Below are positions 31,623 to 52,590 of a stretch of 64,000 bases of DNA, one piece after another. The DNA is from Meridianimarinicoccus sp. MJW13. GTDB taxonomy: Bacteria > Pseudomonadota > Alphaproteobacteria > Rhodobacterales > Rhodobacteraceae. Each line of letters begins with the position of its first letter. Position 1 is the stretch's first letter. The translations under genes and the position numbers were made by a program. Below the pieces are notes generated by a model. The model was not told the DNA's origin and did not search any database. It saw nothing but the letters and a program-made list of their open reading frames with translations. The stretch lies in NCBI RefSeq assembly GCF_014901205.1, contig NZ_JACNMU010000004.1:124001-188000 (forward strand), given 5' to 3'.

Positions 31623-31634
31623 GGGGAGATGGGC

Positions 31635-34646: not shown

Positions 34647-34711
34647 TGTAGGCTCCATTCACTAGTAGATCTGTCCGCCGCGACGGGCGGTGCCAGGGTT
34701 GAAAAAAGGCC

Positions 34712-35434: not shown

Positions 35435-36093
35435 TGGGCCCACCTGTTTTCAAGATGCGAGGCGTAGCGGGACAGCGGGTAGGACAATGCGAAGTAGAAC
35501 GCGCCCGCGACGGTCAGGATCAGGAAAGGCTCCTGGGTGCGGGTGATCAGGATCTGGCTGGCTTTCAGCAGCTCGACATAGCCCAGCACCGACACAAGCG
35601 CGCTGTCCTTCATCACCCCAAGGGCAACCCCCACCCACGAGGGGAAAACGGCACGCCCGCCGATGGGCAGCACAACGTGGCGCAGGTCCTGCCAATAGCT
35701 CATGCCGAGGCTGCGGGCGGCGCGGCGCATGGGCAGGCCCACCGCCTCGATCCCGCCACGGGCGACATTGGCGACCAGCGCGGCCGTGTAAATCGTCAGG
35801 ATCACCAGCCCCGAGGCGAAGGGATCCAGGTTCAGCCCCACGATGGGCGCGAAGTTGTAGAACAGCACCAGCTGAATGATCAGTGGAACCGACCGGAAGA
35901 TGTCGAGCACCGGGGCGATGGTCAACGTGGCGATCCAGCGGCCCTCGTAGAGGATCCAGCCGAAGATCGCCCCAAGTACCGTACCGATCGATATCGACAG
36001 CACCGAGATCCAGAGCGTGCGCAGCGCCGCTTCGCCCAGAAACAGAAGGTCGTAGGGGGTGAAGCCGCTGAAGAAGGATTGCGTGGTTTCCAT
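35431..36093 (-). CDS. Polar amino acid ABC transporter permease 1
   Basis: A 220-residue membrane protein of the His/Glu/Gln/Arg/opine permease family with about five helices and the EAA-type loop AVGLPMRRAARSLGMSYWQ. Pairs with the permease at 36103-36765, from which it is separated by 9 bases. Confidence 0.92.
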   Translation of the reverse strand: METTQSFFSGFTPYDLLFLGEAALRTLWISVLSISIGTVLGAIFGWILYEGRWIATLTIAPVLDIFRSVPLIIQLVLFYNFAPIVGLNLDPFASGLVILTIYTAALVANVARGGIEAVGLPMRRAARSLGMSYWQDLRHVVLPIGGRAVFPSWVGVALGVMKDSALVSVLGYVELLKASQILITRTQEPFLILTVAGAFYFALSYPLSRYASHLENRWAQ

Positions 36094-36102
36094 CCTGTCC
36101 TC

Positions 36103-36765
36103 TCAGTACCGGAACAGCCGGGTGGCCAGCAGGCGTGACGACAACAGGATCACCTTGACGATGGCATAGTAGATCACGGCGGTGACGGCGAAGTATTCGA
36201 AGATGCGGAAGGTGCGGCTGGCGAAGAACTGGGTCTCGCCGCTGAGTTCACGAAAGCCCACCAGCATCCCCAGCGAGGACATCAGCACGGCCCAGACCAT
36301 CTGGTTGGTGATCGGGTGATAGACGATGCGGAAAACCTGCGGGATGATCACCCGCGTATAGGTCTGCCAGGGCGTCATGCCGAGGCTGCGGGCGGCGCGG
36401 ACCTGGGTGTCGGGCACGGCCTGAAAGCCGCCGCGGAAGTTTTCCGCCAGATAGCCCGCGCAGTTGAAGGTCAGCCCGGTCAGCACGATCAGATAGGGCG
36501 ACAGGTGCAGGCCGAAGGCACCCAGCCCGAAGCCGAAGAAGAACAGCTGGAACAAGGCGGGCGTATTGCGCGCCAGTTCGACCCAGGAGGTTGCGAACCA
36601 CCGCGCCGGACCCGTCATGTGCAGCCGGATCAGCGCCAGGCACAGGCCGATGAGGATGCCGAGGATCATCGCCAGAACCGCGACCTGCAGGGTCAGCAAG
36701 GCCGCCTCCAGCAGATCCGGCAGGCTCTTCATCACGGGCCGCCAGTGGAAATTATAGTCGAACAT
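36103..36765 (-). CDS. Polar amino acid ABC transporter permease 2
   Basis: A 220-residue permease of the same family, with the coupling loop VRAARSLGMTPWQTY and the segment ELARNTPALFQLFFFG seen in HisM/GlnP-type proteins. Second membrane subunit of the ABC importer. Confidence 0.92.
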   Translation of the reverse strand: MFDYNFHWRPVMKSLPDLLEAALLTLQVAVLAMILGILIGLCLALIRLHMTGPARWFATSWVELARNTPALFQLFFFGFGLGAFGLHLSPYLIVLTGLTFNCAGYLAENFRGGFQAVPDTQVRAARSLGMTPWQTYTRVIIPQVFRIVYHPITNQMVWAVLMSSLGMLVGFRELSGETQFFASRTFRIFEYFAVTAVIYYAIVKVILLSSRLLATRLFRY

Positions 36766-36824
36766 GGGAGATGTGCTCCGGATCCCTGCCGGACAGCGCC
36801 GACAGGGAGGGTTTCACGGACGGA

Positions 36825-37625
36825 TCAGTACATCACGCCGGGAATGCGCAACTCGGGCGCCTCGCCCCCGACATAGTGGCTCCACAACTCCTGATAGCGA
36901 CCGCTGCGCACCTGATGGGTGATGAACAGGTTGAGATAGTTCAGCCAGGTCACATCCTCGCGCTTGCCCACGACCGAGGTATAGTCGGTGGTCCAGGGCA
37001 TCCGCGGGCCGGGGTCGATGGTGTCGTACTGCTGGGTGATCGGCAGGACGGCGGTGTTGGTGGTGATGCCGATGTCGGCCTTGCCCTGTGCCACGGCAAG
37101 GAACACCTCGTTCTCGGACTGGTAGCCCTGATAGTTGCCTTCTTCGCCCCATTCGGCGGCGATCTTCAGCCACTCCTGCTCGGGCACGGTGCCGATGGCG
37201 GCGGCGACGCGCTTGCCGCGGATGTCCTCGAAGCTCTCGATGCCACTGTCTTTGTGCACCACGCCCTGGGCGTAGTAGATGGCATAGGGAATGGTGAAAC
37301 CGACGGTGCGGGCACGCGCCAGGCTGTCGGAAGTGGCCCCGAACACCACGTCGGCGCGGCCGGTCACGATCACCGGCAGACGTTCGGCCCAGGTCACCGG
37401 CAGGATCTCGGCCTCGACCTCAAGCGCGGCGGCGAGATCGTTGCAATAGTCCACGTCGTAACCTGCGGGCTGGTTCTTGGCATCGCGATAGCCGATCGGC
37501 GGGAAGTCCAGAACGACGCCGCACCGCAGAGTGCCCCGATCAACCACATCATCCAGTGTATCCGCGAGTGTCGGTGTCATCGATACCAGCGAGAGCGCCG
37601 CGGCGACGGCCATTGTTTTTAGCAT
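36825..37625 (-). CDS. Polar amino acid ABC transporter binding protein
   Basis: A 266-residue family 3 extracellular binding protein with a signal peptide (MLKTMAVAAALSLVSM to about residue 22, TLA-D cut). It has GTLRCGVVLDFPPIGYRD at the start and a ligand-pocket segment GRADVVFGATSDSLARAR. First gene of the twelve-gene minus-strand hydroxyproline operon. GGAGG lies 6 bases before the ATG at 37625, and an operator-like repeat lies just upstream. A frame to 37712 is not supported. Confidence 0.92.
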   Translation of the reverse strand: MLKTMAVAAALSLVSMTPTLADTLDDVVDRGTLRCGVVLDFPPIGYRDAKNQPAGYDVDYCNDLAAALEVEAEILPVTWAERLPVIVTGRADVVFGATSDSLARARTVGFTIPYAIYYAQGVVHKDSGIESFEDIRGKRVAAAIGTVPEQEWLKIAAEWGEEGNYQGYQSENEVFLAVAQGKADIGITTNTAVLPITQQYDTIDPGPRMPWTTDYTSVVGKREDVTWLNYLNLFITHQVRSGRYQELWSHYVGGEAPELRIPGVMY

Positions 37626-37653
37626 TTGTGCCTCCGTTGTTGGTAATGATTCG

Positions 37654-37676
37654 ATACGGGATATTGTATCCAAAAT
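37654..37676. promoter_or_regulatory. Operator-like repeats before the hydroxyproline operon
   Basis: ATACGGGATA (37654-37663) is the inverted core of the site at 25191-25207, and TATTGTATCCAAAAT (37662-37676) is the inverted copy of the site before gntR. A possible -10 (TACAAT on the minus strand) lies within it. Both elements fall 29-51 bases before the first start codon of the operon. Confidence 0.6.
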
Positions 37677-37935
37677 CCACATGAATCTCGAAAATCCCGG
37701 CTTAAGCGCCATTTGGCCGTGAAATTCAGCGGTACTGCTTAAATATTAGGCGAATTGGGGCGTGGGTGGGCAAGGGCGCAAAGCCATGTCGCCAGACTCC
37801 GGATGGCCGATGTGCGGTGCTGCCAGTTGGCGCGGACCGTCGAACGGGACCGCCGCAAGGGCCGCCCCCGGCCCTGGGCCCGGCTGTGCCCCTTGCGGGA
37901 TATCCGGATCAGGGGCCGACGCCGTGCCAAAGGGT

Positions 37936-37964
37936 TTGACAGGGCCGGAAAGCCTCCATAACCT
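37936..37964 (+). promoter_or_regulatory. Sigma70-type promoter of the TTT operon
   Basis: TTGACA (37936-37941) and TAACCT (37959-37964) are 17 bases apart. The -10 overlaps the first bases of the palindromic operator, so repressor binding would block the promoter. Confidence 0.55.
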
Positions 37965-37976
37965 ACCACATGGTAG
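37963..37976. promoter_or_regulatory. TetR-type operator, copy 1
   Basis: CTACCACATGGTAG is a perfect 6-2-6 palindrome at the tctC promoter, 18 bases before the start codon. The same pattern CTACYNNNTGGTAG recurs twice near 44150. Confidence 0.7.
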
Positions 37977-37993
37977 ATAGCGGAGGAGATACC

Positions 37994-39016
37994 ATGACAC
38001 ACCTAACCAAGATCGCGGTGCTCGCGGCAGCCGGGGCAGTTCTTGCGGCACCGCTTGCGGCGCAGGATTACAGCTGGAAACCGGATCGCCCGATCAACAT
38101 CATCGTGCCGTGGTCAGCCGGCGGATCGACCGACCAGGTGACCCGCGTGGTCGCGCCCATTCTGGAAGAGGCGTTGGGAACCGAGATCGTGGTGGTCAAC
38201 CAGCCGGGCGCGTCGGGTTCGACCGGAACCAAGGCCGCGCTGGACGCGCCGCGCGACGGCTATACCTGGACCGCCAACGCCATTGCCAACAACGCCACCT
38301 ATTCGGTGACCGGGCTGATCGAGAATACCTCGATCAACGACTACGAGATCTACCTGCATGTGGCCAACGTGCCGCTGGTCAGTGTCAATGCCGATGCCCC
38401 GTACAAGGATTTCCCCGAACTGCTTGACGCCATGGCCAGCGGGTCGGTCACGGTGGGCACGGCCGGGGTGAACTCCTCGGGCGGCATGGCCCTTGCGGCG
38501 ATCAAGGAAAGCGCCGAGGGCGACCTGTCGGGCGCGCGCATGATTGCCTATGACGGTGGCAACCCTGCCGTCATCGCGGCAGCCAGCGGCGAAGTCGTGG
38601 CCACCACCCAGCTTGCGGTGGAGCAGACCGAGATGATCCGCGCCGGTCGCCTGCGCCCCCTGGCGGTTCTGTCCGACACCCCGCTGGTGGTGGAAGGTAT
38701 CGATCCGGTGCCGCCGATCACCCAGTTCATGCCCGATTTCGAAGTGGCCGCGGACTATTTCGGGGTCTTCATCCCGAAGGGTGCCCCGCAAGAGGTCTAT
38801 GACACCGTCAACCAGGTCTGGCAGGACAAGGTGATGACCAGCGAAGCCCTGCAAACCTATGCCACCGATCGCGGTGCGGTCTTTGCCCCCAGCTTCGGCA
38901 AGGAAGCCTTTGACCGGGCCATGCCGGTGGTGATCGCCGAGGCCTGCGCCCGCGTCACCCGTGGCGAGGCCGTTGTCGATCCCTCCGAGATCGGCATCAC
39001 CTGCCCCGCGGAATAA
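37994..39016 (+). CDS. TTT transporter binding protein (TctC/Bug family)
   Basis: Periplasmic binding protein of 340 residues with a signal peptide ending near LAAQDYSW. Bug-family marks include PINIIVPWSAGGSTDQ and NQPGASGSTGTKAAL. It captures a carboxylate-type solute for the TctAB permease. GGAGGAG lies 6 bases before the ATG at 37994. First gene of an operon with tctB, tctA, a TIM-barrel isomerase and an enolase-type enzyme. Confidence 0.92.
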   Translation: MTHLTKIAVLAAAGAVLAAPLAAQDYSWKPDRPINIIVPWSAGGSTDQVTRVVAPILEEALGTEIVVVNQPGASGSTGTKAALDAPRDGYTWTANAIANNATYSVTGLIENTSINDYEIYLHVANVPLVSVNADAPYKDFPELLDAMASGSVTVGTAGVNSSGGMALAAIKESAEGDLSGARMIAYDGGNPAVIAAASGEVVATTQLAVEQTEMIRAGRLRPLAVLSDTPLVVEGIDPVPPITQFMPDFEVAADYFGVFIPKGAPQEVYDTVNQVWQDKVMTSEALQTYATDRGAVFAPSFGKEAFDRAMPVVIAEACARVTRGEAVVDPSEIGITCPAE

Positions 39017-39026
39017 CCCGCTTTCT

Positions 39027-39054
39027 CCGGGCGGGGCCATATGGCGTCGCCCGG
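39027..39054 (+). terminator. Intercistronic stem-loop after the TTT binding protein
   Basis: CCGGGCG (39027-39033) pairs with CGCCCGG (39048-39054), 11 bases past the stop and before tctB. Probably sets binding-protein excess rather than full termination, as no U-tract follows. Confidence 0.45.
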
Positions 39055-39107
39055 ATCTGCAGGCTTTCCGGGGACGCCCTTCCCCTGACAAATAACAGGT
39101 GATTTCG

Positions 39108-39593
39108 ATGCGAATGGCCCAGGCGGACCGCCTTACGGCAGTCATCTTCCTTGTGCTTGGTCTGGCCCTGCTGGCGGGTGGCTACACGATGGACAGACTG
39201 GAAATCCGGAGAATCCACCCGGCCTCGATTCCGGGGCTTGTTCCGATGATCCTTGGCGTCCTGCTGTCGATCTGCGCGATCCTGCTGTACCGCTCCTCCT
39301 ATGCCAAGGCCGAACGCAACGAGGCTATGGTCTTCACGGGCGGGTCCTGGGCGCGACTGGCGACCACAGCCGTGATCTGCACCCTCTATGCGCTGGGGCT
39401 GGTGGGCTGGTTGCCGTATTTCTGGGCCACTTTCATCTTCACCCTGTGCTTTACATTGGCATTCTCCTTCCCCATCGGCGGCGCCCGCCGGGCGCAGGCC
39501 ATTTCGCTTGCGGCGGGGCTGGTGCTGGCGTTTGGTGTGGCGTTGGGATCGTCGCTGCTGTTTGAAAAGCTGTTCCTGGTGCGGTTGCCATGA
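39108..39593 (+). CDS. TTT transporter small permease (TctB family)
   Basis: A 161-residue protein with four hydrophobic segments typical of TctB. The ATG at 39108 is preferred; a GTG at 39099 and an ATG at 39114 are close alternatives. Its stop overlaps the tctA start (ATGA). Confidence 0.88.
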   Translation: MRMAQADRLTAVIFLVLGLALLAGGYTMDRLEIRRIHPASIPGLVPMILGVLLSICAILLYRSSYAKAERNEAMVFTGGSWARLATTAVICTLYALGLVGWLPYFWATFIFTLCFTLAFSFPIGGARRAQAISLAAGLVLAFGVALGSSLLFEKLFLVRLP

Positions 39594-41113
39594 GCGGACT
39601 GGGCGATCTGATGACCGGGTTGGGCACCCTGTTGACCCCCGGCATGCTGTTTCACGCGGCCTGGGCAACGCTTCTGGGCATCGTCGTGGGCTCGCTGCCC
39701 GGTCTGACGGCGACCATGGGCGTGGCCTTGATGACCACGCTGACCTATTCGCTGGACTCCACCTCTGCCATCTTCGTGCTGATCTGCATGTATGTCGGTG
39801 CGATCTACGGCGGCTCGCGCAGCGCCATCCTGCTGAACATTCCCGGCACCCCGGCCAGCGCGGCAACCTCGCTGGACGGCTATCCCTTGGCCAAGGCGGG
39901 CCGGGCGGGCTATGCCATGGGGCTGGCCACCGCGGGCTCGGCCCTTGGCACCGTGGCCGGGGTCGTCATGCTGGTGCTGATCGCGCCGCCTTTGGCCGAA
40001 GCCGCGCTGAACTTCGGCAGTTTCGAGTTTTTCTGGCTGGCGGTCTTCGGCATCCTGATCTCGGGCCAGCTGACCGCCGACACCACCCCGCTGAAAGGCT
40101 ATATTGCCGGGCTTCTGGGGCTGGCGGTAGCGATGATCGGCTCGGAAGGCATCCACGCGCATGTGCGGTTCAACCTGGGCCTGTCCGACCTGAACGCCGG
40201 CATCGCGCTGATCCCGGCCATGGTCGGTGCCTTCGGATTCGCCGAGGTGCTGACAGCCATGTGGAACCGCGCCGGAGAGATCGCCACCAAGAAGGATTCC
40301 AGCGACCGCACGATCCCCGAAATGGGCGATATCTGGCGTCACAAGTTCACCATCGCGCGCTCGGGCGTCATCGGCACAATCGTCGGCATCATCCCCGGTG
40401 TGGGCGAGGATATCGGCGCCTGGGCCAGCTATGCCACAGCCCGCAAGCTGTCGAAGGAAAAAGAGAAATTTGGTCATGGCAGCCACGAAGGGCTGATCGC
40501 GGCGGAAACCGGAAACTCGGCCGTGGTGCCCGGATCGTTGATCCCCGCCATCACGCTGGCGGTGCCGGGGTCCGCCAGTTCGGCGGTTCTGATCGCGGCG
40601 CTGTTCATCCATGGCATCCGGCCCGGACCGCTGATCATGATCGAGCAGCCGCAGTTCGTCGGCCTGATCAGCGCCATGGTTCTGATCGCGACGGTCTTCA
40701 TGGCCTTCTACGGGCTGACCCTGACCAAGGCCTTCGTGCAGGTGCTGCGGGTGCCCTACAGCCGGTTGATGCCGGTGGTCTTCGTGCTGTGCGTGATCGG
40801 CACCTTCGCCCTGAGCCAGCGCATGTTCGACATCTGGATCATGGTCGCCTTCGGCCTGATCGGCTTTGTCCTGCGGCAGATGAAATACCCGATGGCGCCG
40901 CTGGTGCTGGGGATCATCCTGGGCGATCTGCTGGACAAGAGCCTGCGGCGCGGCCTGACGCTCAGCGACGGCGAACTTGCCCCGTTCTTCACGCGGCCGG
41001 TGTCGGCGATCTTCGTGGCGCTGATCGTGGCCTCGATTGCCATGAATATCCCCGCGGTCCGCCGCCTGGCGCTGGCCCCCTTCCGCTGGATCGGAGCGCG
41101 GCTGAATGCTTGA
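39590..41113 (+). CDS. TTT transporter large permease (TctA family)
   Basis: A 507-residue membrane protein with eleven or twelve helices. The TctA repeats are visible as VVGSLPGLTATMGVAL near the N-terminus and GIIPGVGEDIGAWASY in the second half. Completes the tripartite importer with the two upstream genes. Overlaps the next gene by 8 bases. Confidence 0.93.
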   Translation: MSGLGDLMTGLGTLLTPGMLFHAAWATLLGIVVGSLPGLTATMGVALMTTLTYSLDSTSAIFVLICMYVGAIYGGSRSAILLNIPGTPASAATSLDGYPLAKAGRAGYAMGLATAGSALGTVAGVVMLVLIAPPLAEAALNFGSFEFFWLAVFGILISGQLTADTTPLKGYIAGLLGLAVAMIGSEGIHAHVRFNLGLSDLNAGIALIPAMVGAFGFAEVLTAMWNRAGEIATKKDSSDRTIPEMGDIWRHKFTIARSGVIGTIVGIIPGVGEDIGAWASYATARKLSKEKEKFGHGSHEGLIAAETGNSAVVPGSLIPAITLAVPGSASSAVLIAALFIHGIRPGPLIMIEQPQFVGLISAMVLIATVFMAFYGLTLTKAFVQVLRVPYSRLMPVVFVLCVIGTFALSQRMFDIWIMVAFGLIGFVLRQMKYPMAPLVLGIILGDLLDKSLRRGLTLSDGELAPFFTRPVSAIFVALIVASIAMNIPAVRRLALAPFRWIGARLNA

Positions 41114-41936
41114 TTTCACCCTGTGCAACGAACTGCTGGCGGGCGAGGGCAAGTCGCTGGGCGAACAGGCGCATATCGCCGCAAAGCTGGGCTATTGCGG
41201 GCTGGAACTGGACCCGGCGACGCTGGGCGCGGCCCCTCATGCCCTGACAGATGCACGCATTGCGCAGATCCGGGGTGAGATCGCGGCGGAAGGCGTGCGC
41301 GTCACCGGGTTGCACTGGCTGCTCAGCAGCTACGCCGATGTCTCGATTACCGATCCCGCCGGGCAGGCGCGGGCGCGTGACATCCTGATGGGGATGGTCG
41401 ACCTGTGCGCGGGGCTCGGCGGCACGGTGCTGGTCCATGGCTCGCCCAAGCAACGACTTCGGCCCGAGGGGCTGGACGATGCCGCGCTGCTCTCGCAACT
41501 TGCCGAATTCTTCGCCCCCATCGCCGCCGCGGCCGAGCGCCGGGGCGTGACCTATTGCATCGAACCGCTGTCGCGGGCCGAGGATCGGACGCTCAACACC
41601 GTGGGGCAGGGGGTGGACCTTGTCTGCGCCATCGGCAGCCCCGCCTTCCGCACCATGATCGACATCAGCGCCGCCGGCCAGACCGAAGCCCCGGTGGCCG
41701 ATCTGATCCGGCACTGGGTGCCGGGCGGCATGATTGGCCATATCCACGCCAATGACACCAATCGCGGCGCGCCGGGCATGGGCGACGATCCGTTCCCCCA
41801 GATCGTCGCCGCCCTTGTCGAGACCGGCTGGAACAGGCCCATCGGGGTCGAACCCTTCCGCACCCTGATCGACGCCAGCGTGACCGCCGCGACCGGCATC
41901 GCCACCCTGAAAGCCTGTGAAAGGGCCGCCGCATGA
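41106..41936 (+). CDS. TIM-barrel sugar isomerase/epimerase-like protein A
   Basis: A 276-residue member of the xylose-isomerase-like/AP endonuclease 2 family (IolE/IolI/hydroxypyruvate isomerase relatives). Metal-site-type residues appear in YCIEPLSR, TMIDISAAG, IGHIHANDTN and IGVEPFR. Such proteins isomerise or epimerise keto-sugars or sugar acids, or dehydrate them. Translationally coupled to tctA and to the enolase-type gene after it. The substrate is not known. Confidence 0.82.
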   Translation: MLDFTLCNELLAGEGKSLGEQAHIAAKLGYCGLELDPATLGAAPHALTDARIAQIRGEIAAEGVRVTGLHWLLSSYADVSITDPAGQARARDILMGMVDLCAGLGGTVLVHGSPKQRLRPEGLDDAALLSQLAEFFAPIAAAAERRGVTYCIEPLSRAEDRTLNTVGQGVDLVCAIGSPAFRTMIDISAAGQTEAPVADLIRHWVPGGMIGHIHANDTNRGAPGMGDDPFPQIVAALVETGWNRPIGVEPFRTLIDASVTAATGIATLKACERAAA

Positions 41937-43252
41937 CCCAACTTGCGATCCTCTCGGCCTCGTGGTCCGAACGCCCGGTGGCGATGCGCCTGCCGTTCCA
42001 GTTCGGCAGCACCGAAGTGCGCGAAACCGCCGAAGCCTATTGTCGGGTCGAGATCGAGGTGAACGGCACCCGCGCGACCGGGCGGTCGGCGCAACTGATG
42101 GTGCCGCGCTGGTTCAACAAGCGCGCGGACCTCAGCAACGCCGACACCATCGATGAATTGCGCAGGGTCGTGGCGGCGGCGGTGGCGGCAGCCCCGGGGC
42201 AGGGCGGGACGGCCCTGACGGTGACGCGCAGCCTGCGGGCCGAGGTCGCCCGCGCCCTGCCGGACACGCCGCCCCTTGCCCTTGGCTTTGGCCCGTCGCT
42301 GGTCGAGATGGCGGTGATCGACGCGCTGTGCCGGGCGCTGGGTCTGCCGTTCTGGCAGGCGGCGCGCGACGATGCCTTCGGCCTGGCCCAGGGCTGCCCC
42401 CCGGATCTGACCGTCGATCAACTCCGCCGGTCACTGTCCGCGATCACCGCCCCAACGACCCTTGTTCTGCGCCACACCATCGGCTTTGATGCCCCGCTGC
42501 GGCAGTCAGAAAAGGCACAGGATGCGCCCGAGGATGGCCTGCCGGTGTCGCTGGACGAGGTGATTTCCCAGACCGGCATCGCGGCCTTCAAGATCAAGCT
42601 GAAAGGCGATCCCGAGGCGGACCAGCGCCGGTTGCGCGACATCGCGGCGCTTCTGGATCAGGGCGGCGACTATGCCGTGACGCTGGACGCCAACGAGCAA
42701 TACACGCCCGACAACTTCAGCCGCCTGCTGGGCAGCATGGCCCGCGATGCGGCGCTGGAGCGGTTCCTTGGCACCGTGCGGTTCGTCGAACAGCCCTTCG
42801 CGCGCGAGATTGCCCTGAGCGAACCGGTTGCTGCGCCGCTGCCCCTGATCATCGATGAAAGCGACGATAGTGAGGATGCCTTTGCCCGCGCGCTGGAACT
42901 GGGCTGGTCCGGCACGTCGATCAAAAGCTGCAAGGGGATGTTGCGCGCCCTGTTGAACAAGGCCCGCGCCGAGGCGGCAGGGGCGGTTCTGTCGGGCGAG
43001 GATCTGACCTGTCAGCCGGGCATCTGCTGGTTGCAGGATGCGGCGATGATGTCGGCTTGCGGGGTTGTGGACGTCGAACGCAACGGCCACCACTTTGCCG
43101 GCGGCTTGCAGGGTGCGCCAGACGCGGAACGCGCAATGCTGCTGCACCGCCACGACGATATTCTGACCGACACCTCCGGCGGCGTCGCCCTGCGTATCGT
43201 GGGGGGTAAAGTGGCGATCGGGTCACTGGGTCAGCCCGGTTTCGGCTGGTAG
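41933..43252 (+). CDS. Enolase-superfamily (MR/MLE-like) enzyme, substrate unknown
   Basis: A 439-residue protein, longer than the usual 360-380. The core has KxK in FKIKLKGD, metal ligands in TLDANEQY, RFVEQPF and IIDESDD, and a second Lys in SIKSCKG, the layout of the muconate-lactonizing subgroup. The extra length is mostly N-terminal and in an insertion around residues 175-200. Likely a dehydratase, racemase or cycloisomerase of a carboxylate sugar. ATGA overlap with the isomerase gene. I do not recognise a characterised homologue. Confidence 0.75.
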   Translation: MTQLAILSASWSERPVAMRLPFQFGSTEVRETAEAYCRVEIEVNGTRATGRSAQLMVPRWFNKRADLSNADTIDELRRVVAAAVAAAPGQGGTALTVTRSLRAEVARALPDTPPLALGFGPSLVEMAVIDALCRALGLPFWQAARDDAFGLAQGCPPDLTVDQLRRSLSAITAPTTLVLRHTIGFDAPLRQSEKAQDAPEDGLPVSLDEVISQTGIAAFKIKLKGDPEADQRRLRDIAALLDQGGDYAVTLDANEQYTPDNFSRLLGSMARDAALERFLGTVRFVEQPFAREIALSEPVAAPLPLIIDESDDSEDAFARALELGWSGTSIKSCKGMLRALLNKARAEAAGAVLSGEDLTCQPGICWLQDAAMMSACGVVDVERNGHHFAGGLQGAPDAERAMLLHRHDDILTDTSGGVALRIVGGKVAIGSLGQPGFGW

Positions 43253-43315
43253 GGTGCACAAGTCAGCGCGCCGGGGTACAGAGAGGATTGTCCTGACAGA
43301 CGACGGCGAGGGTAT

Positions 43316-43978
43316 ATGGCCAAGCGAGTTTCTCCGATCCGCAAGGATCGCAAGCGCAACCCCGAATTGACCCGGGCCGCCATCCTGCATGCCGCGCTGG
43401 AGGAATTCAGCGAGGTCGGCCATTCCGGCGCGCGCGTCGATCGGATCGCCGAACGCGCCGGGGTCAGCAAGCCGATGATCTACGACTATTTCGGCGACAA
43501 GAACGCGGTCTATGCCGCCGCCTTGCGTGAAGCCTATATCCAGATCCGGCAAGGCGAGATGACGCTGGAGCTGGACACGCTCGACCCCGAAGAGGCGATC
43601 CGCGCGCTGGTGCATTTCACCATGAACCACTTCTGGAACAACCCGTGGTTCATCCGGATGCTGAACACCGAGAACCTGATGGGCGGCGAGACCATTCGCG
43701 GTCTGGATGACCTGGCCGAGATTCAGTCGGTCCTGTTGCGCCGCGTCGAGGAGATACTGAAACGCGGGCAGGAGAACGGCATGTTCCACCGCGCCATTCC
43801 GCCGGTCGATCTGTATATTTTCATCGCCTCGGTCTGCTGGTTTCCAATTTCGAACATGCACACGCTGACGGTGGTGTTCCGCGCGCCCATCGGCGAGGCC
43901 TGGCTGAAACGCCATGCGGATCAAGCCGCCGACATGATCCTGGGCTATCTGAAAACCGCCGTGCCCCCTGCGGTTTAA
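43316..43978 (+). CDS. TetR family regulator
   Basis: A 220-residue regulator with an N-terminal helix-turn-helix (about 22-68, SKPMIYDYFGDKNAVYAAAL as recognition region) and a helical ligand domain with a TetR_C-type helix (FTMNHFWNNPWFIRML). It lies between two operons that share a palindromic operator, and is its most likely reader. No copy of the operator is seen in its own 63-base upstream gap, so it may not autoregulate, or may be read from the enolase-type gene. Confidence 0.88.
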   Translation: MAKRVSPIRKDRKRNPELTRAAILHAALEEFSEVGHSGARVDRIAERAGVSKPMIYDYFGDKNAVYAAALREAYIQIRQGEMTLELDTLDPEEAIRALVHFTMNHFWNNPWFIRMLNTENLMGGETIRGLDDLAEIQSVLLRRVEEILKRGQENGMFHRAIPPVDLYIFIASVCWFPISNMHTLTVVFRAPIGEAWLKRHADQAADMILGYLKTAVPPAV

Positions 43979-44143
43979 CGCAGGCCGTGCACTTTCTGCC
44001 CAATCGTCAACCCCGCGTGTTGTTCGCGCGCGGGGCAGAGCTGCGTGTGTGTACACGGACCGATTTGCGCCATCGTCACAGCCCCCTGAACCCCTTGAAA
44101 CAACGCAGCCGAAGTCATTCTGACTTGACTTGGATTCATTAAC

Positions 44144-44157
44144 CTACTAGTTGGTAG
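44144..44157. promoter_or_regulatory. TetR-type operator, copy 2
   Basis: CTACTAGTTGGTAG, one arm base off a perfect palindrome. It starts 14 bases after a TTGACT -35-like element, so it covers the -10 region of the probable promoter. Confidence 0.7.
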
Positions 44158-44165
44158 TTTAAGGG

Positions 44166-44179
44166 CTACCGAGTGGTAG
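44166..44179. promoter_or_regulatory. TetR-type operator, copy 3
   Basis: CTACCGAGTGGTAG, exactly 22 bases downstream of copy 2, about two helical turns, so both dimers would sit on the same DNA face. Confidence 0.7.
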
Positions 44180-44194
44180 ATTGGAGGAGATTGC

Positions 44195-44281
44195 ATGACG
44201 GACATCGCATTTTCGGGCGGGGGCCTCCCCACCCTGACCTCTGGTCCTGCCGAAGCCCACAGGCCGCTTGCGCGCCGATAG
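44195..44281 (+). CDS. Possible 28-residue leader peptide
   Basis: ATG at 44195 follows GGAGGAGA by 4 bases and opens a frame (MTDIAFSGGG...) that ends at TAG. It starts just after the operators and ends 75 bases before the oxidoreductase ATG. It has no recognisable motif. It could be a translated leader, a degraded gene start, or chance. Confidence 0.3.
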   Translation: MTDIAFSGGGLPTLTSGPAEAHRPLARR

Positions 44282-44356
44282 GACAGCACCACAATCCGCA
44301 CCAGGCTGGCAAGCCGGTGCCGAGACACGAATTCCAAAGCGAAGGATGGAAACGAC

Positions 44357-45508
44357 ATGACCACACAACGTATCGGCATCATCATGCATGGCGTCACCGG
44401 CCGGATGGGGATGAACCAGCACCTGATCCGCTCGGTTCTGGCGATCCGCGATCAAGGTGGCGTGCGCCTGAAGAACGGGGATCTGCTGGTTCCGGACGTG
44501 ATCATTGTCGGCCGCAACGAGAAGAAGATTGCCGAGCTTGCGAAAAAGCACGGGGTCACGCGGTATACCACCGATATCGACGCGGCGCTGGCCAATCCCG
44601 ATGACACCATCTTTTTCGATGCCGCCAGCACCCAGATGCGCCCCGGACTGCTGCGCAAGGCCATCGACGCCGGCAAACATGTCTATTCCGAAAAGCCGGT
44701 CTCGGAAGGTCTGGACGAAGCCATTGCCATCGCCAAGCACGCCAAGGCCAAAGGCGTCAAGAACGGCATCGTGCATGACAAGCTGGACCTGCCCGGCCTC
44801 GCCAAGCTCAAGCGCCTACGCGACAGCGGGTTTTTCGGCAAGATCCTCAGCGTGCGCGGCGAATTCGGCTACTGGGTCTTCGAAGGCGACTGGATGGAAG
44901 CACAGCGTCCGTCGTGGAACTATCGCAAGCAGGACGGCGGCGGCATGGTGTCCGACATGCTGTGCCACTGGCGCTATGTGCTCGACAACGTTGTCGCGCC
45001 GGTCAAGGCCGTGTCCTGCAATGCCGTCACCCATATCCCCGAACGTTGGGACGAAAACGGCGAACGCTATGACGCCACCGCAGATGACGCCGCCTATGCC
45101 ACGTTCGAGCTGGAAGGCGACATCATCGCCCATATCAACAGCTCGTGGTGCACCCGTGTCCGTCGCGACGATCTGGTGACCTTCCACATCGACGGCACCC
45201 ACGGCAGTGCGGTGGCCGGTCTGCACACCTGCTATTCGCAGGCGCGGGTCAACACGCCCAAGCCGGTCTGGAACCCCGACCAGAAGCAGACCATGAACTT
45301 TTTTGAAGACTGGGTCGAAGTGCCCGACAACAAGGTGTTCGACAACGGCTTCAAGGTGCAATGGGAACAGTTCCTGCTGCACGTGGTCGAAGACGCGCCG
45401 TGGTCCTATACTCTGGTCGAAGGCGCCAAGGGCGTGCAACTGGCCGAGCTGGGTTACAAGAGCTCGCAGGAACGCCGCTGGCTGGACGTGCCGGCTCTGG
45501 ATATCTGA
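44357..45508 (+). CDS. Gfo/Idh/MocA family oxidoreductase
   Basis: A 383-residue NAD(P)-dependent dehydrogenase with the family EKP motif (YSEKPVSEG) and the catalytic Asp/His in GGGMVSDMLCHWRYV. The N-terminal Rossmann segment is IGIIMHGVTGRMG. Members oxidise or reduce hydroxyls of sugars, cyclitols and sugar acids. First gene of an operon with DUF993 and a TIM-barrel isomerase, behind two TetR operators. The substrate is unknown. Confidence 0.88.
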   Translation: MTTQRIGIIMHGVTGRMGMNQHLIRSVLAIRDQGGVRLKNGDLLVPDVIIVGRNEKKIAELAKKHGVTRYTTDIDAALANPDDTIFFDAASTQMRPGLLRKAIDAGKHVYSEKPVSEGLDEAIAIAKHAKAKGVKNGIVHDKLDLPGLAKLKRLRDSGFFGKILSVRGEFGYWVFEGDWMEAQRPSWNYRKQDGGGMVSDMLCHWRYVLDNVVAPVKAVSCNAVTHIPERWDENGERYDATADDAAYATFELEGDIIAHINSSWCTRVRRDDLVTFHIDGTHGSAVAGLHTCYSQARVNTPKPVWNPDQKQTMNFFEDWVEVPDNKVFDNGFKVQWEQFLLHVVEDAPWSYTLVEGAKGVQLAELGYKSSQERRWLDVPALDI

Positions 45509-45521
45509 GGGGGGCTGACAC

Positions 45522-46676
45522 ATGGCAAACCTGATCCTTCCCACGGCAGGCGGCGGCACCGATACGGTGACACTTTCTGCCGGACCGGTGCCCGCGCCGG
45601 GCGGCAACTGGACCCGTACTGCCTATGCCGCCGCGCATGTGGTGGCCGATCCGTTGGCCGATCTGGACCCGGGCGAGGGCGTCTCGGTCGACTGGGACCG
45701 CACCCTGGCCTTCCGCCATCACCTGTGGTCGCTGGGCCTGGGCGTGGCCGAGGCAATGGACACCGCGCAGCGCGGCATGGGGCTTGACTGGCCGACCTCG
45801 CTGGACCTGATCCGCCGCAGCATGGAGGTCGCGCCCGATGGCGCGCTGATTGCCAGTGGCGCCGGCACCGATCATCTGGTCCCCGGCCCGGATGTGACCA
45901 TCGACGATGTGATCGCGGCCTATGAAATGCAGTGCGAAGCGGTCGAAGCCACCGGCAGCCGCGTCATCCTGATGGCCAGCCGCGCGCTGGTGAAAGCCGC
46001 GAAATCGCCCGACGATTATGCCCGCGTCTATGGCCGTGTCCTGTCGGGGCTGAAGCAACCGGCGATCCTGCACTGGCTGGGCGAGATGTTCGACCCGGCC
46101 CTGGCCGGATACTGGGGCGATGCCGATCACATGGCGGCGATGGACACCTGCCTGTCGGTGATCGCCGACAACGCCGACAAGGTGGATGGCATCAAGATCT
46201 CGCTGCTGTCGGCGGAAAAGGAAATCGCCATGCGCCGCCGCCTGCCCGAAGGCGTGGTCATGTATACCGGCGACGACTTCAACTATCCCGATCTGATCGA
46301 GGGCGACGACCAGGGCTTTTCCCATGCCCTGCTGGGCATCTTCGATCCCATCGCCGGGGCGGCCTGCCGGGCGCTGACCTCGCTGGCCGAGGGCGACCGC
46401 GCCGCCTATCGCGCCGCCTTCGATCCGACGGTGCCGCTCAGCCGCCATATTTTCAAGGCGCCGACGCGGTTCTACAAGACCGGTGTGGTATTTCTGGCCT
46501 ATCTGATGGGCCATCAGGACCACTTCACCATGGTCGCCGGGCAGGAAAGCGCCCGCTCGACCCTGCATCTGGCAGAAGCCATCCGGCTGGCCAATGCCGC
46601 GCAGCTATTCACCGATCCTGAAGAGGTTGCGCGACGCGCCAAGCCGGTGTTCCAGGCGCGGGGGGTGTCGGTATGA
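45522..46676 (+). CDS. DUF993 family, DHDPS-like aldolase-fold protein
   Basis: A 384-residue protein of the DUF993 group, which is distantly related to dihydrodipicolinate synthase. A possible Schiff-base Lys lies in VDGIKISLLS, near the position used by class I aldolases, with a TGDDFNYPDL segment after it. In other genomes the family travels with Gfo/Idh oxidoreductases and sugar isomerases, as here, suggesting a retro-aldol or dehydration step. Starts 13 bases after the oxidoreductase and overlaps the next gene by 4. Confidence 0.8.
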   Translation: MANLILPTAGGGTDTVTLSAGPVPAPGGNWTRTAYAAAHVVADPLADLDPGEGVSVDWDRTLAFRHHLWSLGLGVAEAMDTAQRGMGLDWPTSLDLIRRSMEVAPDGALIASGAGTDHLVPGPDVTIDDVIAAYEMQCEAVEATGSRVILMASRALVKAAKSPDDYARVYGRVLSGLKQPAILHWLGEMFDPALAGYWGDADHMAAMDTCLSVIADNADKVDGIKISLLSAEKEIAMRRRLPEGVVMYTGDDFNYPDLIEGDDQGFSHALLGIFDPIAGAACRALTSLAEGDRAAYRAAFDPTVPLSRHIFKAPTRFYKTGVVFLAYLMGHQDHFTMVAGQESARSTLHLAEAIRLANAAQLFTDPEEVARRAKPVFQARGVSV

Positions 46677-47497
46677 GAACGCTCACCGCGCGGGACTTGT
46701 CGCTCAACACCGCCACGGTGTCGAAACAATGGGATCTGGCCGAATGCGTCGACGGCTGCGCCCGGCATGGCATCGGCGGCATCTCTCCGTGGCGCGACAG
46801 GCTGCAGGAATGCGGTGTCGATCACGCCGCAAAGTTGATCCGCGACGCCGGGCTGGGCGTCTCGGGCCTGTGCCGGGGTGGTTGGTACACCGCCGAGGGG
46901 GCGCTGACCCAGGCCGTCATCGACGACAACAAGCGCGCCGTGGACGAGGCCGCCGCCATCGGCGCGGACTGCCTTGTCATGGTGGTGGGTGGGCTGCCCG
47001 AAGGCTCGAAAGACATCGTCGGAGCGCGCGAGATCGTCACCGAAGGTCTGGGCAAGACGCTGGAGTATGCCCGCACCGCCGGGGTGAAGGTCGGGATCGA
47101 GCCGCTGCACCCGATGTATGCCGCCGACCGGGCCTGCGTGAACACCACCAAGCAGGCGCTGGACATCTGCGACCAGCTTGGCGACGGCATCGGCGTGGCG
47201 CTGGATGTCTATCACATCTGGTGGGATCCAGACGTGGCAGACCAGATCGCCCGCGCCGGCAAGGACCGCCTGCTGGCCTTCCACGTCTGCGACTGGATGA
47301 ACCCGACGCAGGACATGCTGACCGATCGCGGCATGATGGGCGAAGGTGTGATCGACATTCCCGCCCTCCGCCAGATGGTCGAGGCGCAGGGCTTTGATGG
47401 TCTTGTCGAGGTCGAGATCTTCTCGGCCAACAACTGGTGGACCAAGCCCGCCGATGAGGTTCTGCGGGCCATGATCGCGGCCTTGCCGGTGATCTAG
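46673..47497 (+). CDS. TIM-barrel sugar isomerase/epimerase-like protein B
   Basis: A 274-residue xylose-isomerase-like protein. Metal-type residues appear in VGIEPLHPMYA, VALDVYHIWWD, LLAFHVCDWM and LVEVEIFS. Last gene of the Gfo-DUF993-isomerase operon (ATGA overlap). Probably acts on the keto-sugar made by the oxidoreductase; this is inference from order. Distinct from isomerase A, with only general family likeness. Confidence 0.83.
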   Translation: MRTLTARDLSLNTATVSKQWDLAECVDGCARHGIGGISPWRDRLQECGVDHAAKLIRDAGLGVSGLCRGGWYTAEGALTQAVIDDNKRAVDEAAAIGADCLVMVVGGLPEGSKDIVGAREIVTEGLGKTLEYARTAGVKVGIEPLHPMYAADRACVNTTKQALDICDQLGDGIGVALDVYHIWWDPDVADQIARAGKDRLLAFHVCDWMNPTQDMLTDRGMMGEGVIDIPALRQMVEAQGFDGLVEVEIFSANNWWTKPADEVLRAMIAALPVI

Positions 47498-47543: not shown

Positions 47544-47558
47544 TGCAAAAAACTTGCG
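47544..47558. promoter_or_regulatory. LacI-type operator candidate before lacI-like gene
   Basis: TGCAAAAAACTTGCG, the pattern YGCAA-N5-TTGCR, matching the site at 48707-48721. It lies 80 bases before the lacI-like start. Confidence 0.5.
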
Positions 47559-47560
47559 TT

Positions 47561-47592
47561 GCCCTCCCCCCCGGTCGAAAAGGGGGGAGGGC
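47561..47592 (+). terminator. Strong hairpin in the gap before the lacI-like gene
   Basis: An 11-bp perfect stem (GCCCTCCCCCC / GGGGGGAGGGC) with a 10-base loop is followed by AATTGCGTTTTTG. It may terminate the isomerase operon, or sit in the leader of the lacI-like gene if that promoter is upstream. Confidence 0.7.
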
Positions 47593-47637
47593 AATTGCGT
47601 TTTTGCCCGCTTCGTCACCATCGGCGGGAGAGGCATC

Positions 47638-48666
47638 TTGAGACAACACAAGGTCAGGCAGGAAGACATCGCGCGCGTCGTGGGGGTTTCGATATCCACC
47701 GTGTCGCGGGTGCTGTCGGGGGCACCGGGGATCAGCCCGACTACAACGAAGAAGGTTCTGCAGGCCGCAGCGGACCTTGGCACCCCGCTGCCGCACGTGC
47801 ACCATACGCAGCCACCGGCGCAAGGCCACGGCCTGAAGCGCGCCTTGCTGTTTCTCAACCAGGTGGACATCAACAGCGGATCCGGATCGATCTATCATTT
47901 CGTGATGACCGGCATCCAGAAGGCCGCACAACGGATCGGGCTGCCGGTTGAACTGGCGCTGCAAAGTGAAGACGGCGAAATCCCCGATCAATTCCTCGAT
48001 CGGGCGGATACGGGCATTCTTTTCGCCGGGGTGGATCCATCCGCAAGCCTGTCAAAGAAGCTTAAAAACAAGGGGCTTGCGACGGTGTTCGTCAATGGTC
48101 TGGATCCAGACATGATCCACGATCAGGTCGCCCCCAACAATTTCTACGGCGGTCGGTTGGCCGCGCGGCACCTTGTGGGCATGGGTCATCGGCGCATTCT
48201 TCATTTTGGCACAAAGCGTCGCGGAACCCTGCGCGCCCGCACCGAGGGGTTTCGTAACGGGATCGAAAATGCAGGTGTTGGCGGCATTGAATACGACTAT
48301 GTCGAACTGGGAAACGTCACCGAAATCGACGCAGGCACCGCGCTTAGGGAACTGCTGAAAGACGGGCAGTTTCCCTTTTCCGCGGTGTTCTGTTCGGCCG
48401 ACAATGTGGCGCTGACCGCCCTGCAGGCGCTGCGCCTGCGCGGGATTGATGTGCCGCGCGATGTCTCGCTGCTGGGATTCAACGGGCTGCCCGTGGCCGA
48501 ACTGTCGTCACCGCTGCTCAGCACCCTTGCCGTGGACTGGGAGTTTCTTGGCACGGAAGCGATTCGTCTGTTGGCCTTGCGCAGCCTTGAACCGGACCGT
48601 CCGGCGCAACAAACCCTCACGCAAGTTATCCTGAAGCAGCGGGACACCGTTCTGGATGTGAATTAA
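47638..48666 (+). CDS. LacI family regulator
   Basis: A 342-residue regulator with an N-terminal LacI helix-turn-helix (QEDIARVVGVSISTVSRVL, about residues 7-25) and a periplasmic-binding-type effector domain. No ATG fits: the start is a TTG at 47638 with GGGAGAGG 5 bases upstream, placing the helix-turn-helix at the usual distance from the N-terminus; starts in the hairpin further up are not credible. It probably controls the operon starting at 48801, whose upstream region has three inverted repeats. An effector cannot be named. Confidence 0.88.
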   Translation: MRQHKVRQEDIARVVGVSISTVSRVLSGAPGISPTTTKKVLQAAADLGTPLPHVHHTQPPAQGHGLKRALLFLNQVDINSGSGSIYHFVMTGIQKAAQRIGLPVELALQSEDGEIPDQFLDRADTGILFAGVDPSASLSKKLKNKGLATVFVNGLDPDMIHDQVAPNNFYGGRLAARHLVGMGHRRILHFGTKRRGTLRARTEGFRNGIENAGVGGIEYDYVELGNVTEIDAGTALRELLKDGQFPFSAVFCSADNVALTALQALRLRGIDVPRDVSLLGFNGLPVAELSSPLLSTLAVDWEFLGTEAIRLLALRSLEPDRPAQQTLTQVILKQRDTVLDVN

Positions 48667-48706
48667 GCAATTTAAAACAGTGATATAAACGCCAGTCCAC
48701 AAGTTA

Positions 48707-48772
48707 CGCAAGTAATTTGCATGATCACGGAAAAACTTGCGATATAACGCAATCTGTGCAAGGTTCTTTGCA
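48707..48772. promoter_or_regulatory. Three LacI-type inverted repeats before the dehydrogenase operon
   Basis: CGCAAGTAATTTGCA (48707-48721), TTGCGATATAACGCAA (48737-48752) and TGCAAGGTTCTTTGCA (48757-48772). All are built from YGCAA/TTGCR half-sites with 5- or 6-base centres. They end 29 bases before the start codon at 48801. Confidence 0.55.
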
Positions 48773-48800
48773 GTCGCACTGACGCTGCAAGGAGACCTGA

Positions 48801-49823
48801 ATGCGCCTTTCCTCTCTGATCCAACTGGCAAGGCCGCAGTTCGACATCCATTTCCCGGCCAGTTGCCGTACCCGCAACACCGACCGGCTTGCGTCCCTGA
48901 CCAACCTTTTGCACCCCGAACCTGTGGCCGATCTGCGCTGCAACGCGGTTGCCGGGCTGCTGCCGCAGGTGGAAATCCTGGTGACCGGCTGGCGTTCCCA
49001 GACTGTCGATGCCGACCTGCGCCGCAGGATGCCGAACCTGAAGATGATCGCCCATCTGGCGGGAACGGTGAAAGGGGTACTGACGCAACAGGTGGCCGGC
49101 ACGGGACTGGTGGTGCTCAGCGCCGCCGACGCCAACGCCCGCCCCGTTGCCGAATTCACCCTTGCCCACATCCTGCTGCACCTGAAGCGCGTTTCCGAAT
49201 GGCGCAGGGTCTATCAGGCAGAGCGGTCGCATATCGCCACGCGGGACATCCAGCTTGCCGGTCCGGTGGGCAATTCCGGCCGTACGGTCGGCATCGTCGG
49301 AGCCTCGCGCATCGGCCGTCGTGTGACTGCGGAACTGCGCCGTCACCGCGTGTCGGTCCTGCTGCACGATCCGTTTGTCAGCGCCGAAGCCGCTGCCGCC
49401 ATGGGGGCCGAAAAGGTCTCGATGACCGATCTGCTGATGCGCAGCGACGTGGTCAGCCTGCACCAGCCGCTGCTGCCCACGACCGAAGGCAGTTTCGGCG
49501 CCCGCGAATTTGCACTGATGCGGGATGGCGCGCTTCTGATCAACACGGCGCGCGGCAAGATCATCGATACCGCCGCGCTTGAGACGGCCATGGCCGACGG
49601 TCGCCTGTTCGCCGTACTGGACGTGACCGAACCCGAACCGCTGAACGACGACTCTCCCCTGTGGGACATGCGGAATGTCACGATCACACCCCATATTGCG
49701 GGCTCTTTCGGCTGCGAGGTCTGCGACATGACCGAACAGGTGCTGGACGATATCGAGCGCTTCTCAAACGGCCAGCCCATGCAAAACGAAGTCGCGATCT
49801 CGGATTGGGAGCGCGTGGCATGA
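48801..49823 (+). CDS. D-2-hydroxyacid dehydrogenase family protein
   Basis: A 340-residue NAD-dependent dehydrogenase of the D-isomer-specific hydroxyacid family. The nucleotide motif is GIVGASRIGRR (Ser in place of one usual Gly-adjacent residue). The catalytic set is Arg in NTARGKIID, Glu in DVTEPEP and His in TPHIAGS. AAGGAGA precedes the ATG. First gene of the LacI-linked operon; a role in oxidising a sugar acid or reducing a keto acid is inferred. Confidence 0.88.
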   Translation: MRLSSLIQLARPQFDIHFPASCRTRNTDRLASLTNLLHPEPVADLRCNAVAGLLPQVEILVTGWRSQTVDADLRRRMPNLKMIAHLAGTVKGVLTQQVAGTGLVVLSAADANARPVAEFTLAHILLHLKRVSEWRRVYQAERSHIATRDIQLAGPVGNSGRTVGIVGASRIGRRVTAELRRHRVSVLLHDPFVSAEAAAAMGAEKVSMTDLLMRSDVVSLHQPLLPTTEGSFGAREFALMRDGALLINTARGKIIDTAALETAMADGRLFAVLDVTEPEPLNDDSPLWDMRNVTITPHIAGSFGCEVCDMTEQVLDDIERFSNGQPMQNEVAISDWERVA

Positions 49824-50605
49824 TCCACCCCGGCCTGTGCTCTGTCACATTTCGGGCGCTCGACGTCCCGGCGCTGATCGATCTGGCCGCCACCACCGGC
49901 GTGCAAGTCATCGAATGGGGCGGCGACAAGCATGTCCCGCCGGGGGATCCGGACTTTGCCGCGCAGGTGCAAACGCTGTGTGACACCAAGGGCATCCTGC
50001 CGGCCTCCTATGGGTCTTATGTCCGGGCCGGGATGCCGGGTGCCCGCGCGGAGTTTGCCAAAGTGCTGGCGTCCGCCCGCGCACTTTGCGCCAGAAATAT
50101 CCGGGTGTGGGCCGGTGACGCAAAGCGTGCCGATGCCGGAGCACAGGCCTTCGACACCGCCGCTGCCGACCTTGCGCATTTCGCCCGCAGCGCGGCCCAG
50201 GACAACATCACCGTCAGCGTCGAATACCACCGCCGCACCCTGACCGAAGAGGCCGAGGATGCCCTGGCGCTGCTGAACGCCGCCGCCGAGGACAATCTTT
50301 ACAGCTACTGGCAGCCGGTTCCGGGGCGCGGTCTGGCGCGCTGGCTGGAAGAACTCGACATGCTCTCGCCGCATCTGGGCGATCTGCACGTGTTCCACTG
50401 GATCATGACCGATGGTGGACAGAAGCGGCGTCCGCTGGCCGAAGGCCTGCCGGACTGGCGCGTCCTGTTCGATGCCTGGACACCCGCGCCGCGCTGGCCG
50501 CATCCGCGCACGGCCTTTCTTGAATTCGTCCGCGACGACGAGATCGGCCAGTACCTCGACGACATGCACAACCTGAAAACGCTGTGCGGTCTGTCCACGG
50601 ACTGA
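49820..50605 (+). CDS. TIM-barrel sugar isomerase/epimerase-like protein C
   Basis: A 261-residue AP endonuclease 2/xylose-isomerase-like protein. It starts at an ATGA overlap with the dehydrogenase. Conserved acidic and His residues appear in VIEWGGDKHV, VSVEYHRRTL and GDLHVFHW. The frame that opens at 49661 is inside the dehydrogenase gene. Substrate unknown; third protein of this fold within 10 kb. Confidence 0.8.
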   Translation: MIHPGLCSVTFRALDVPALIDLAATTGVQVIEWGGDKHVPPGDPDFAAQVQTLCDTKGILPASYGSYVRAGMPGARAEFAKVLASARALCARNIRVWAGDAKRADAGAQAFDTAAADLAHFARSAAQDNITVSVEYHRRTLTEEAEDALALLNAAAEDNLYSYWQPVPGRGLARWLEELDMLSPHLGDLHVFHWIMTDGGQKRRPLAEGLPDWRVLFDAWTPAPRWPHPRTAFLEFVRDDEIGQYLDDMHNLKTLCGLSTD

Positions 50606-50634
50606 CCGCGAACCAATCAAGGGAGGAAACCATA

Positions 50635-52524: not shown

Positions 52525-52530
52525 GTCTCT

Positions 52531-52559: not shown

Positions 52560-52590
52560 CCACCCACATGCAATACTCGGGGGAAAGAGC

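Follow-up and report, generated by a model that had tools for sequence, protein, structure and literature searches.

A stretch of 64,000 nucleotides from Meridianimarinicoccus sp. MJW13 (NCBI RefSeq assembly GCF_014901205.1, contig NZ_JACNMU010000004.1, positions 124,001 to 188,000; hereafter the window) contains nine neighbouring genes for a tripartite tricarboxylate transporter (TTT; TctC, TctB and TctA), two TIM-barrel proteins (A and B), an enolase-superfamily protein, a TetR-family regulator, a Gfo/Idh/MocA oxidoreductase (Gfo) and a DUF993 protein. Do these genes serve one pathway and, if so, what does it degrade? An initial annotation of the DNA had described the same nine genes, and our Pfam-supported identities and coordinates (Table 1) agree with it. 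With moderate confidence we favour a single TetR regulon that would take up and degrade an acidic polyhydroxy compound, in which DUF993 would catalyse a lyase step and the route would end in glycerate.

One operator at both promoters

The palindrome CTACYNNNTGGTAG, which the initial annotation had noticed in both promoters, is present there in three copies. Exact matches occur at 37963, 44144 and 44166 and nowhere else in the genome (4,018,212 bases), where a reversed control pattern was found 0 times on the forward and once on the reverse strand. Allowing one mismatch, six strand-wise matches (three places) were counted in the window, a number reached by 0 of 100 shuffles. A scan for consensus promoters and terminators gave no promoter at the operators, and its sites were no more frequent than in shuffled sequence. 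By eye, tctC starts at 37994 and not at the upstream ATG, which lies within operator 1.

For comparison, contigs of GTDB genomes were scanned with the Gfo protein and the best 80 of 590 confirmed matches were kept as named loci. These are the nearest relatives, with many closely related Rhizobium and Devosia among them, and their genes were called by a simple script. Of the 144 sites that a looser form of the palindrome, YWACYNNNNRGTWR, has in the 80 loci, 112 precede tctC, gfo or tetR by no more than 250 bp; the other 32 are elsewhere. This form lies within 150 bp upstream of tctC in all 16 loci where TetR identity is 50% or higher (shuffle mean 0.14). Upstream of gfo it was found in 9 of 19 loci with such a TetR, where gfo is often inside one long operon, and, within 150 bp, in 44 of the 61 other loci (shuffle mean 0.20); shuffle means across the tctC and gfo promoter sets ranged from 0.06 to 0.20. 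Given the shuffles, the genome-wide count and the recurrence at related loci, we rejected chance as the origin of the palindrome.

Two arrangements are informative. In Rhizobium loci (e.g. L091) one site lies between tetR and a divergent ABC-importer operon and another before gfo, so the operator arrangement is kept even though the importer differs. In genome G094, ∼ 40 kb of one contig separates TctC-TctB-TctA-TetR from Gfo-DUF993-TIM-barrel B, and each of these unlinked operons carries an exact match to the 18-base operator. Genome-wide, the 18-base pattern with up to two mismatches was at noise level, controls being equal or higher in most of eight genomes; from these scans we use only the exact G094 matches and one two-mismatch match at the promoter of a DUF2264 module (see below).

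The regulator has a TetR_N domain and an operator conserved at its target promoters; binding and repression are putative. Because the operator stands at both promoters, recurs in relatives and is found on the unlinked G094 operons too, we consider it very likely, from sequence, that both operons form one TetR regulon. The gap between the enolase gene and tetR is 63 bp, on the same strand, and the pattern scan found no operator in it; among the 31 loci with TctA, 21 have tetR immediately after tctA in the same orientation. For these reasons tetR is most likely the last gene of the left operon and would control itself. The initial annotation had placed it between two operons, which is right as to position, but the gene is probably a member of the left operon and not free-standing.

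A recurrent core with variable partners

Composition of the 80 loci was counted by score thresholds (TctA at ≥ 45% identity). DUF993 is encoded directly behind gfo in 75 loci and TIM-barrel B is present in 75, with both features together in 73; a TetR gene lies within 6.5 kb of Gfo in 73. TctA was found in 31 loci and the enolase in 27; TIM-barrel A is present in 13, each of which also has TctA. The recurrent core is thus Gfo/Idh-DUF993-TIM-barrel B, and the importer, the enolase and TIM-barrel A vary. Four Rhizobium-type loci (L075, L076, L090 and L100) have Gfo and lack DUF993; L075 and L076 lack TIM-barrel B as well and keep the enolase.

A separate sample comprised 295 genomes of the family, of which 13 contain a Gfo match at E 1e-60. 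DUF993 is adjacent in all 11 with a Gfo of at least 68% identity, and the two genomes with weaker matches (48% and 42%) have no DUF993 match. Seven of the eight genomes with the enolase also have a close Gfo, versus 11 of 295 overall (Fisher 7e-11), and 7 of the 9 enolase places are within 7 kb of one. Homologues of the two operons therefore do occur together. With the operator on both, this supports the proposal that they are one co-regulated system.

The alternative is that two separate modules share a regulator and a neighbourhood, the left one processing an acid alone and the right one serving other substrates. Support for it comes from the two remaining enolase places, L170 and L171, where left operons occur with none of the three core genes (Gfo, DUF993 and TIM-barrel B). 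Behind the enolase, each carries a NAD-epimerase-like gene (51–52% identical to a PF01370 protein found in L107); a PF00701, DHDPS-like protein is additionally encoded in L171. These may be non-orthologous replacements of Gfo and, in L171, DUF993. Besides, 49 of the 80 loci have Gfo without a close TctA. The linkage of most enolase places to Gfo, the shared operator, unlinked cases included, and the other importers that take the same regulated position in rhizobia all speak against two modules, and we regard such a division as unlikely.

DUF993 and glycerate kinases

The model of DUF993 (pLDDT 91.3) retrieved 4dnh first in Foldseek, followed by DHDPS enzymes. An alignment of 39 sequences (30 of the 75 DUF993 loci, eight first-scan loci and the window) shows K225 to be invariant. 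With a seven-sequence DHDPS profile, K225 aligns with the invariant DHDPS lysine, in a match that is weak (E 0.0026, probability 11.5%); the DUF993 profile against a single DHDPS-like protein gave nothing. DUF993 thus shares the fold and the strand-6 lysine position of the DHDPS/NAL class-I lyases but differs in two respects: H184 occupies the position of the active-site tyrosine, and five DUF993 proteins gave no match to PF00701 even at E 10. The latter result led us to reject DUF993 as an ordinary DHDPS. We regard K225 as the candidate Schiff-base lysine of DUF993.

Glycerate kinases of two families adjoin the core in relatives: PF02595 enzymes on plasmid pAO1 and in Glaciihabitans, and MOFRL-type enzymes on Paracoccus pPAN1 and in G094. 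By tblastn, only two of the 80 loci, both from Marinobacterium, have a PF02595-like match (36–43% identity), located behind tetR. In addition, 14 plasmid regions were compared, 12 of them annotated and two without annotation. A glycerate kinase is listed in six annotated regions, namely three of the six with Gfo and three of the six with an SDR-type dehydrogenase instead. The Meridianimarinicoccus genome has one MOFRL-type glycerate kinase, on the same contig as the locus, and no PF02595 enzyme. Because two unrelated kinase families recur beside the core, in the same setting, we propose glycerate as the product of a sequence of oxidation, C–C cleavage and isomerisation.

TIM-barrel B is beside DUF993 in 13 of the 14 plasmid regions (the exception is pAO1), versus this Gfo in 7 of 14. 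DUF993 and TIM-barrel B therefore look like a constant pair with an exchangeable dehydrogenase. A second DUF993 setting, with an SDR, was seen in L112, L145, L146, L149 and L150; a glycerate kinase is present in three of these five, and most have acyl-CoA dehydrogenase, CoA-transferase, enoyl-CoA hydratase or electron transfer flavoproteins.

The other enzymes

Twenty-six enolase sequences were aligned (25 of the 27 loci and the window; L103 and the truncated L106 were left out), and K220, K222, D252, E286, D308 and K331 are invariant. These residues, the PF13378 match and the fold place the protein in the KxK type of the enolase superfamily. The fold is nearest to dipeptide epimerases and muconate-lactonizing enzymes, with which the KxK/D/E/D/K set is shared; the locus enzyme differs from them by its length of 439 residues and has no PDB sequence match at E 0.001. 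Since the residue set is of this type, dehydration is one option for the enzyme and, as judged from its residues, not the default. The initial annotation had read the locus as a full route with dehydration. That reading is only partly supported, since dehydration is one option among others, the enolase and TIM-barrel A are absent from most loci, and L170 and L171 do without the core.

Both TIM barrels have the E-D-H-E site of the IolI/ketose 3-epimerase type, which we take to bind the metal: E153, D186, H212 and E249 are kept in 14 sequences of TIM-barrel A, and E143, D178, H204 and E248 in 76 of TIM-barrel B. Gfo has the Rossmann and C-terminal domains of the Gfo/Idh/MocA family, and E112-K113-P114, D200 and H204 are conserved in 97% or more of 81 sequences; the lysine of the EKP motif and the D…H pair are presumably catalytic. 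In two distant lineages, pyridine nucleotide transhydrogenase genes lie right behind TIM-barrel B (L160, 10487–14788; L046, 16452–19426), possibly a clue to the cofactor that Gfo uses.

The best NCBIfam match of Gfo is an LgdA-like family, with 67.1 bits against an equivalog cut-off of 650; for IolG (TIGR04380) the score is 58.8 against 355. Gfo is far below both cut-offs, so the core was rejected as the levoglucosan or the inositol pathway itself. A route that merely resembles levoglucosan degradation is a different matter. Gfo would then yield a 3-keto sugar, the TIM barrels would eliminate and hydrate, and DUF993 would be a hydratase or lyase of an unsaturated sugar instead of an aldolase. 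The family match suggests as much, and according to the excerpted text of PMC7676230 a Gfo-type dehydrogenase and the B1/B2 enzymes carry out just such an oxidation–elimination–hydration sequence. The DUF2264 neighbours described below would also fit, as a relative makes unsaturated uronates (excerpted text of PMC12269599). Yet LgdA-LgdB1-LgdB2-LgdC resembles our locus only in its Gfo/Idh dehydrogenase with sugar isomerase-like partners. In the same excerpted text of PMC7676230 the four-enzyme set has no DHDPS-like protein, enolase, TTT or glycerate step, which would leave DUF993 and the glycerate kinase unexplained. Together with the low score, this makes a levoglucosan-like route improbable.

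Flanking genes

The features of the locus and of the module downstream of it are collected in Table 1.

Table 1. Positions in the window of the operators, the nine genes and the associated module.
Feature	Position	Strand	Evidence or remark
Operator 1 (CTACCACATGGTAG)	37963-37976	.	Between TTGACA hexamer (37936-37941, by eye) and tctC ribosome-binding site
TctC, TTT substrate-binding protein	37994-39016	+	PF03401 58.2 bits, cut-off 27
TctB, TTT small membrane subunit	39099-39593	+	PF07331 45.8 bits, cut-off 29.1
TctA, TTT large membrane subunit	39590-41113	+	PF01970 453.6 bits
TIM-barrel A, ketose 3-epimerase-like	41106-41936	+	PF01261; psicose 3-epimerase relatives
Enolase-superfamily protein, KxK type, 439 aa	41933-43252	+	PF13378 41.3 bits, cut-off 29.4; fold
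TetR-family regulator	43316-43978	+	PF00440 and PF17938; gene order in relatives
Operator 2 (CTACTAGTTGGTAG)	44144-44157	.	Before gfo; TTGACT at 44125-44130 by eye
Operator 3 (CTACCGAGTGGTAG)	44166-44179	.	Before gfo, 22 bp behind operator 2
Gfo/Idh/MocA oxidoreductase	44357-45508	+	PF22725, PF02894 and PF01408 above cut-off; 3oqb E 2e-181
DUF993, DHDPS-like fold	45522-46676	+	PF06187 581.5 bits; 4dnh E 2e-154
TIM-barrel B	46673-47497	+	PF01261; 3ju2/3qc0/7vpf E 1e-107
Probable associated module: LacI, 2-hydroxyacid dehydrogenase, TIM barrel, SBP_bac_5 ABC importer, DUF2264	47554-58370	+
DUF2264 protein, 626 aa	56490-58370	+	PF10022 412.9 bits, cut-off 25

All three TTT subunits are present, each above its Pfam cut-off.

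The module downstream contains no operator match in the window. Its DUF2264 protein has the PF10022 domain and matches 9o4u over residues 47–355 (E 7e-24), which places it with the DUF2264/GH154 uronate dehydratases, although it differs from these in its length and its LacI/ABC setting. PDB names of its relatives are beta-D-glucuronic acid dehydratase, glucuronate dehydratase and beta-galactosidase. According to the excerpted text of PMC12269599, BcGDH and BT_3677 show dehydratase activity and the whole GH154 family is proposed to do so. No GH88 or GH105 protein was identified in the module, in a search that covered some of its genes.

Relatives of DUF2264 and the 2-hydroxyacid dehydrogenase both occur in 17 of the 80 loci, all from Rhizobium, Agrobacterium or unnamed Rhizobiales; L037 (Cognatishimia) has DUF2264 but not the dehydrogenase, and Glaciihabitans has a distant DUF2264 copy. 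Among the 295 family genomes only two have DUF2264 above the cut-off, both with a close Gfo. In G094 (L159) the module order is kept, on another contig than the Gfo core, and CTACCATTCGGTAA precedes the 2-hydroxyacid dehydrogenase gene as the sole such site in 19.5 kb. This site departs from the 18-base pattern at two positions, and with that tolerance genome-wide counts do not stand out from the control. The module may feed the core pathway. Because glucuronate dehydratases are among the DUF2264 relatives, a uronic-acid derivative is a reasonable guess for the substrate, by analogy.

For transport, the left flank (22757–37712) encodes a DctP-type TRAP binding protein and a polar amino-acid ABC importer. 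Its other products include two members of the proline racemase family, a DAO-type FAD oxidase, an Ldh_2 protein, a further enolase-superfamily protein, and DHDPS-family and aldehyde dehydrogenase proteins. This flank looks like hydroxyproline catabolism.

Related systems

The closest PDB relatives of the core proteins carry the generic names ‘oxidoreductase’, ‘uncharacterized protein’, ‘sugar isomerase’ and ‘xylose isomerase’. With the Sinorhizobium meliloti region SMc04130-SMc04139, the structures 3oqb, 4dnh, 3ju2, 3qc0 and 7vpf represent relatives of Gfo, DUF993 and TIM-barrel B. On pSymB of S. meliloti strain Ak57, TetR, Gfo, DUF993, mandelate racemase and TIM-barrel genes stand in a row. 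The S. meliloti region differs in having a CUT1-type ABC importer and two more Gfo/Idh genes in place of the TTT. A search of open-access papers yielded no functional paper for the S. meliloti locus tags, which the excerpted sources simply list, in an expression table and in a predicted network (PMC12542648, PMC11387232), and no paper naming DUF993 or DUF2264. The claim that no pathway with this gene set has been described holds within that search, most subscription papers lying outside its scope.

The carbohydrate cluster of pAO1 in Paenarthrobacter nicotinovorans is a further relative. Its Gfo (56% identity) and DUF993 (50%) are adjacent and followed by a glycerate kinase, next to an aldehyde dehydrogenase annotated ‘D-xylose catabolic process’; it differs from our locus in its ABC importer, GMC oxidoreductase and aldehyde dehydrogenase, and no TIM-barrel B lies beside DUF993. 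Mihasan et al. (2013) reportedly, by title, deals with an oxidative xylose pathway on pAO1 and may bear on this relative; we take it to concern this very cluster, in line with the annotation. Our genes could then encode a known route of pentose or inositol oxidation with DUF993 as an ordinary aldolase. The lack of TIM-barrel B beside DUF993 on pAO1, the low IolG score of our Gfo and the TTT importer, a type known for carboxylates, make this the least credible of the readings that we weighed, and we think it very unlikely.

Proposed pathway

On the regulon reading, the TetR protein would control the transport operon (tctCBA, TIM-barrel A, enolase and tetR) and the core operon (gfo, DUF993 and TIM-barrel B) through the palindromes in their promoters, and the substrate or an intermediate would release it. 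The TTT system would import the acid, which is probably a sugar-acid or uronic-acid derivative. TIM-barrel A, as a 3-epimerase-like enzyme, and the enolase would convert variants of this acid into the core substrate, the enolase by metal-assisted abstraction of the α-proton leading to epimerization, cycloisomerization or elimination. Gfo is predicted to use NAD(P)+ in turning a secondary alcohol into a ketone. DUF993 would form a Schiff base via K225 and cleave a C–C bond, as in a retro-aldol reaction, and TIM-barrel B would isomerize the C3-type product. Carbon would leave as glycerate, to be phosphorylated by the glycerate kinase encoded elsewhere in the genome. Of the acidic sugar or cyclitol-like compound suggested by the initial annotation we retain the acidic sugar; nothing points specifically to a cyclitol.

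Several observations weigh against this pathway. In the more distant loci YWACYNNNNRGTWR was found upstream of tctC in 2 of 14 promoters (tctC relatives at ≤ 45% identity and promoters shorter than 100 bases were left out of the promoter comparison). No correlation between the enolase and TctA was seen across the 80 loci (TctA in 13 of the 27 enolase loci, Fisher p 0.24), and L170 and L171 have left operons without the core. DUF993 has the weak profile match, the histidine and the lack of PF00701 noted above. A glycerate kinase is beside the core only in a minority, that is, 2 of 80 loci by tblastn and 6 of 12 annotated plasmid regions.

A broader interpretation is more tentative, and we hold it to be possible at best. 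DUF993 may represent a new class of Schiff-base C–C lyase in which His replaces the DHDPS tyrosine. It may form an unrecognized lower pathway to glycerate together with the near-constant TIM-barrel B and a dehydrogenase that can be exchanged (Gfo or SDR); different import and upper modules (TTT/enolase, CUT1 or DUF2264 uronate dehydratase) would plug into this pathway, often under one TetR operator.

A relative of DUF993 has had a solved structure since 2012 (4dnh), and the protein occurs in 60 of the 295 sampled genomes of the family. Through the regulon it is linked with two further enzymes whose relatives are known only as structures, with importers, and with a repressor that has a defined operator. 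Identity of the substrate would bring functions for a widespread set of enzymes.

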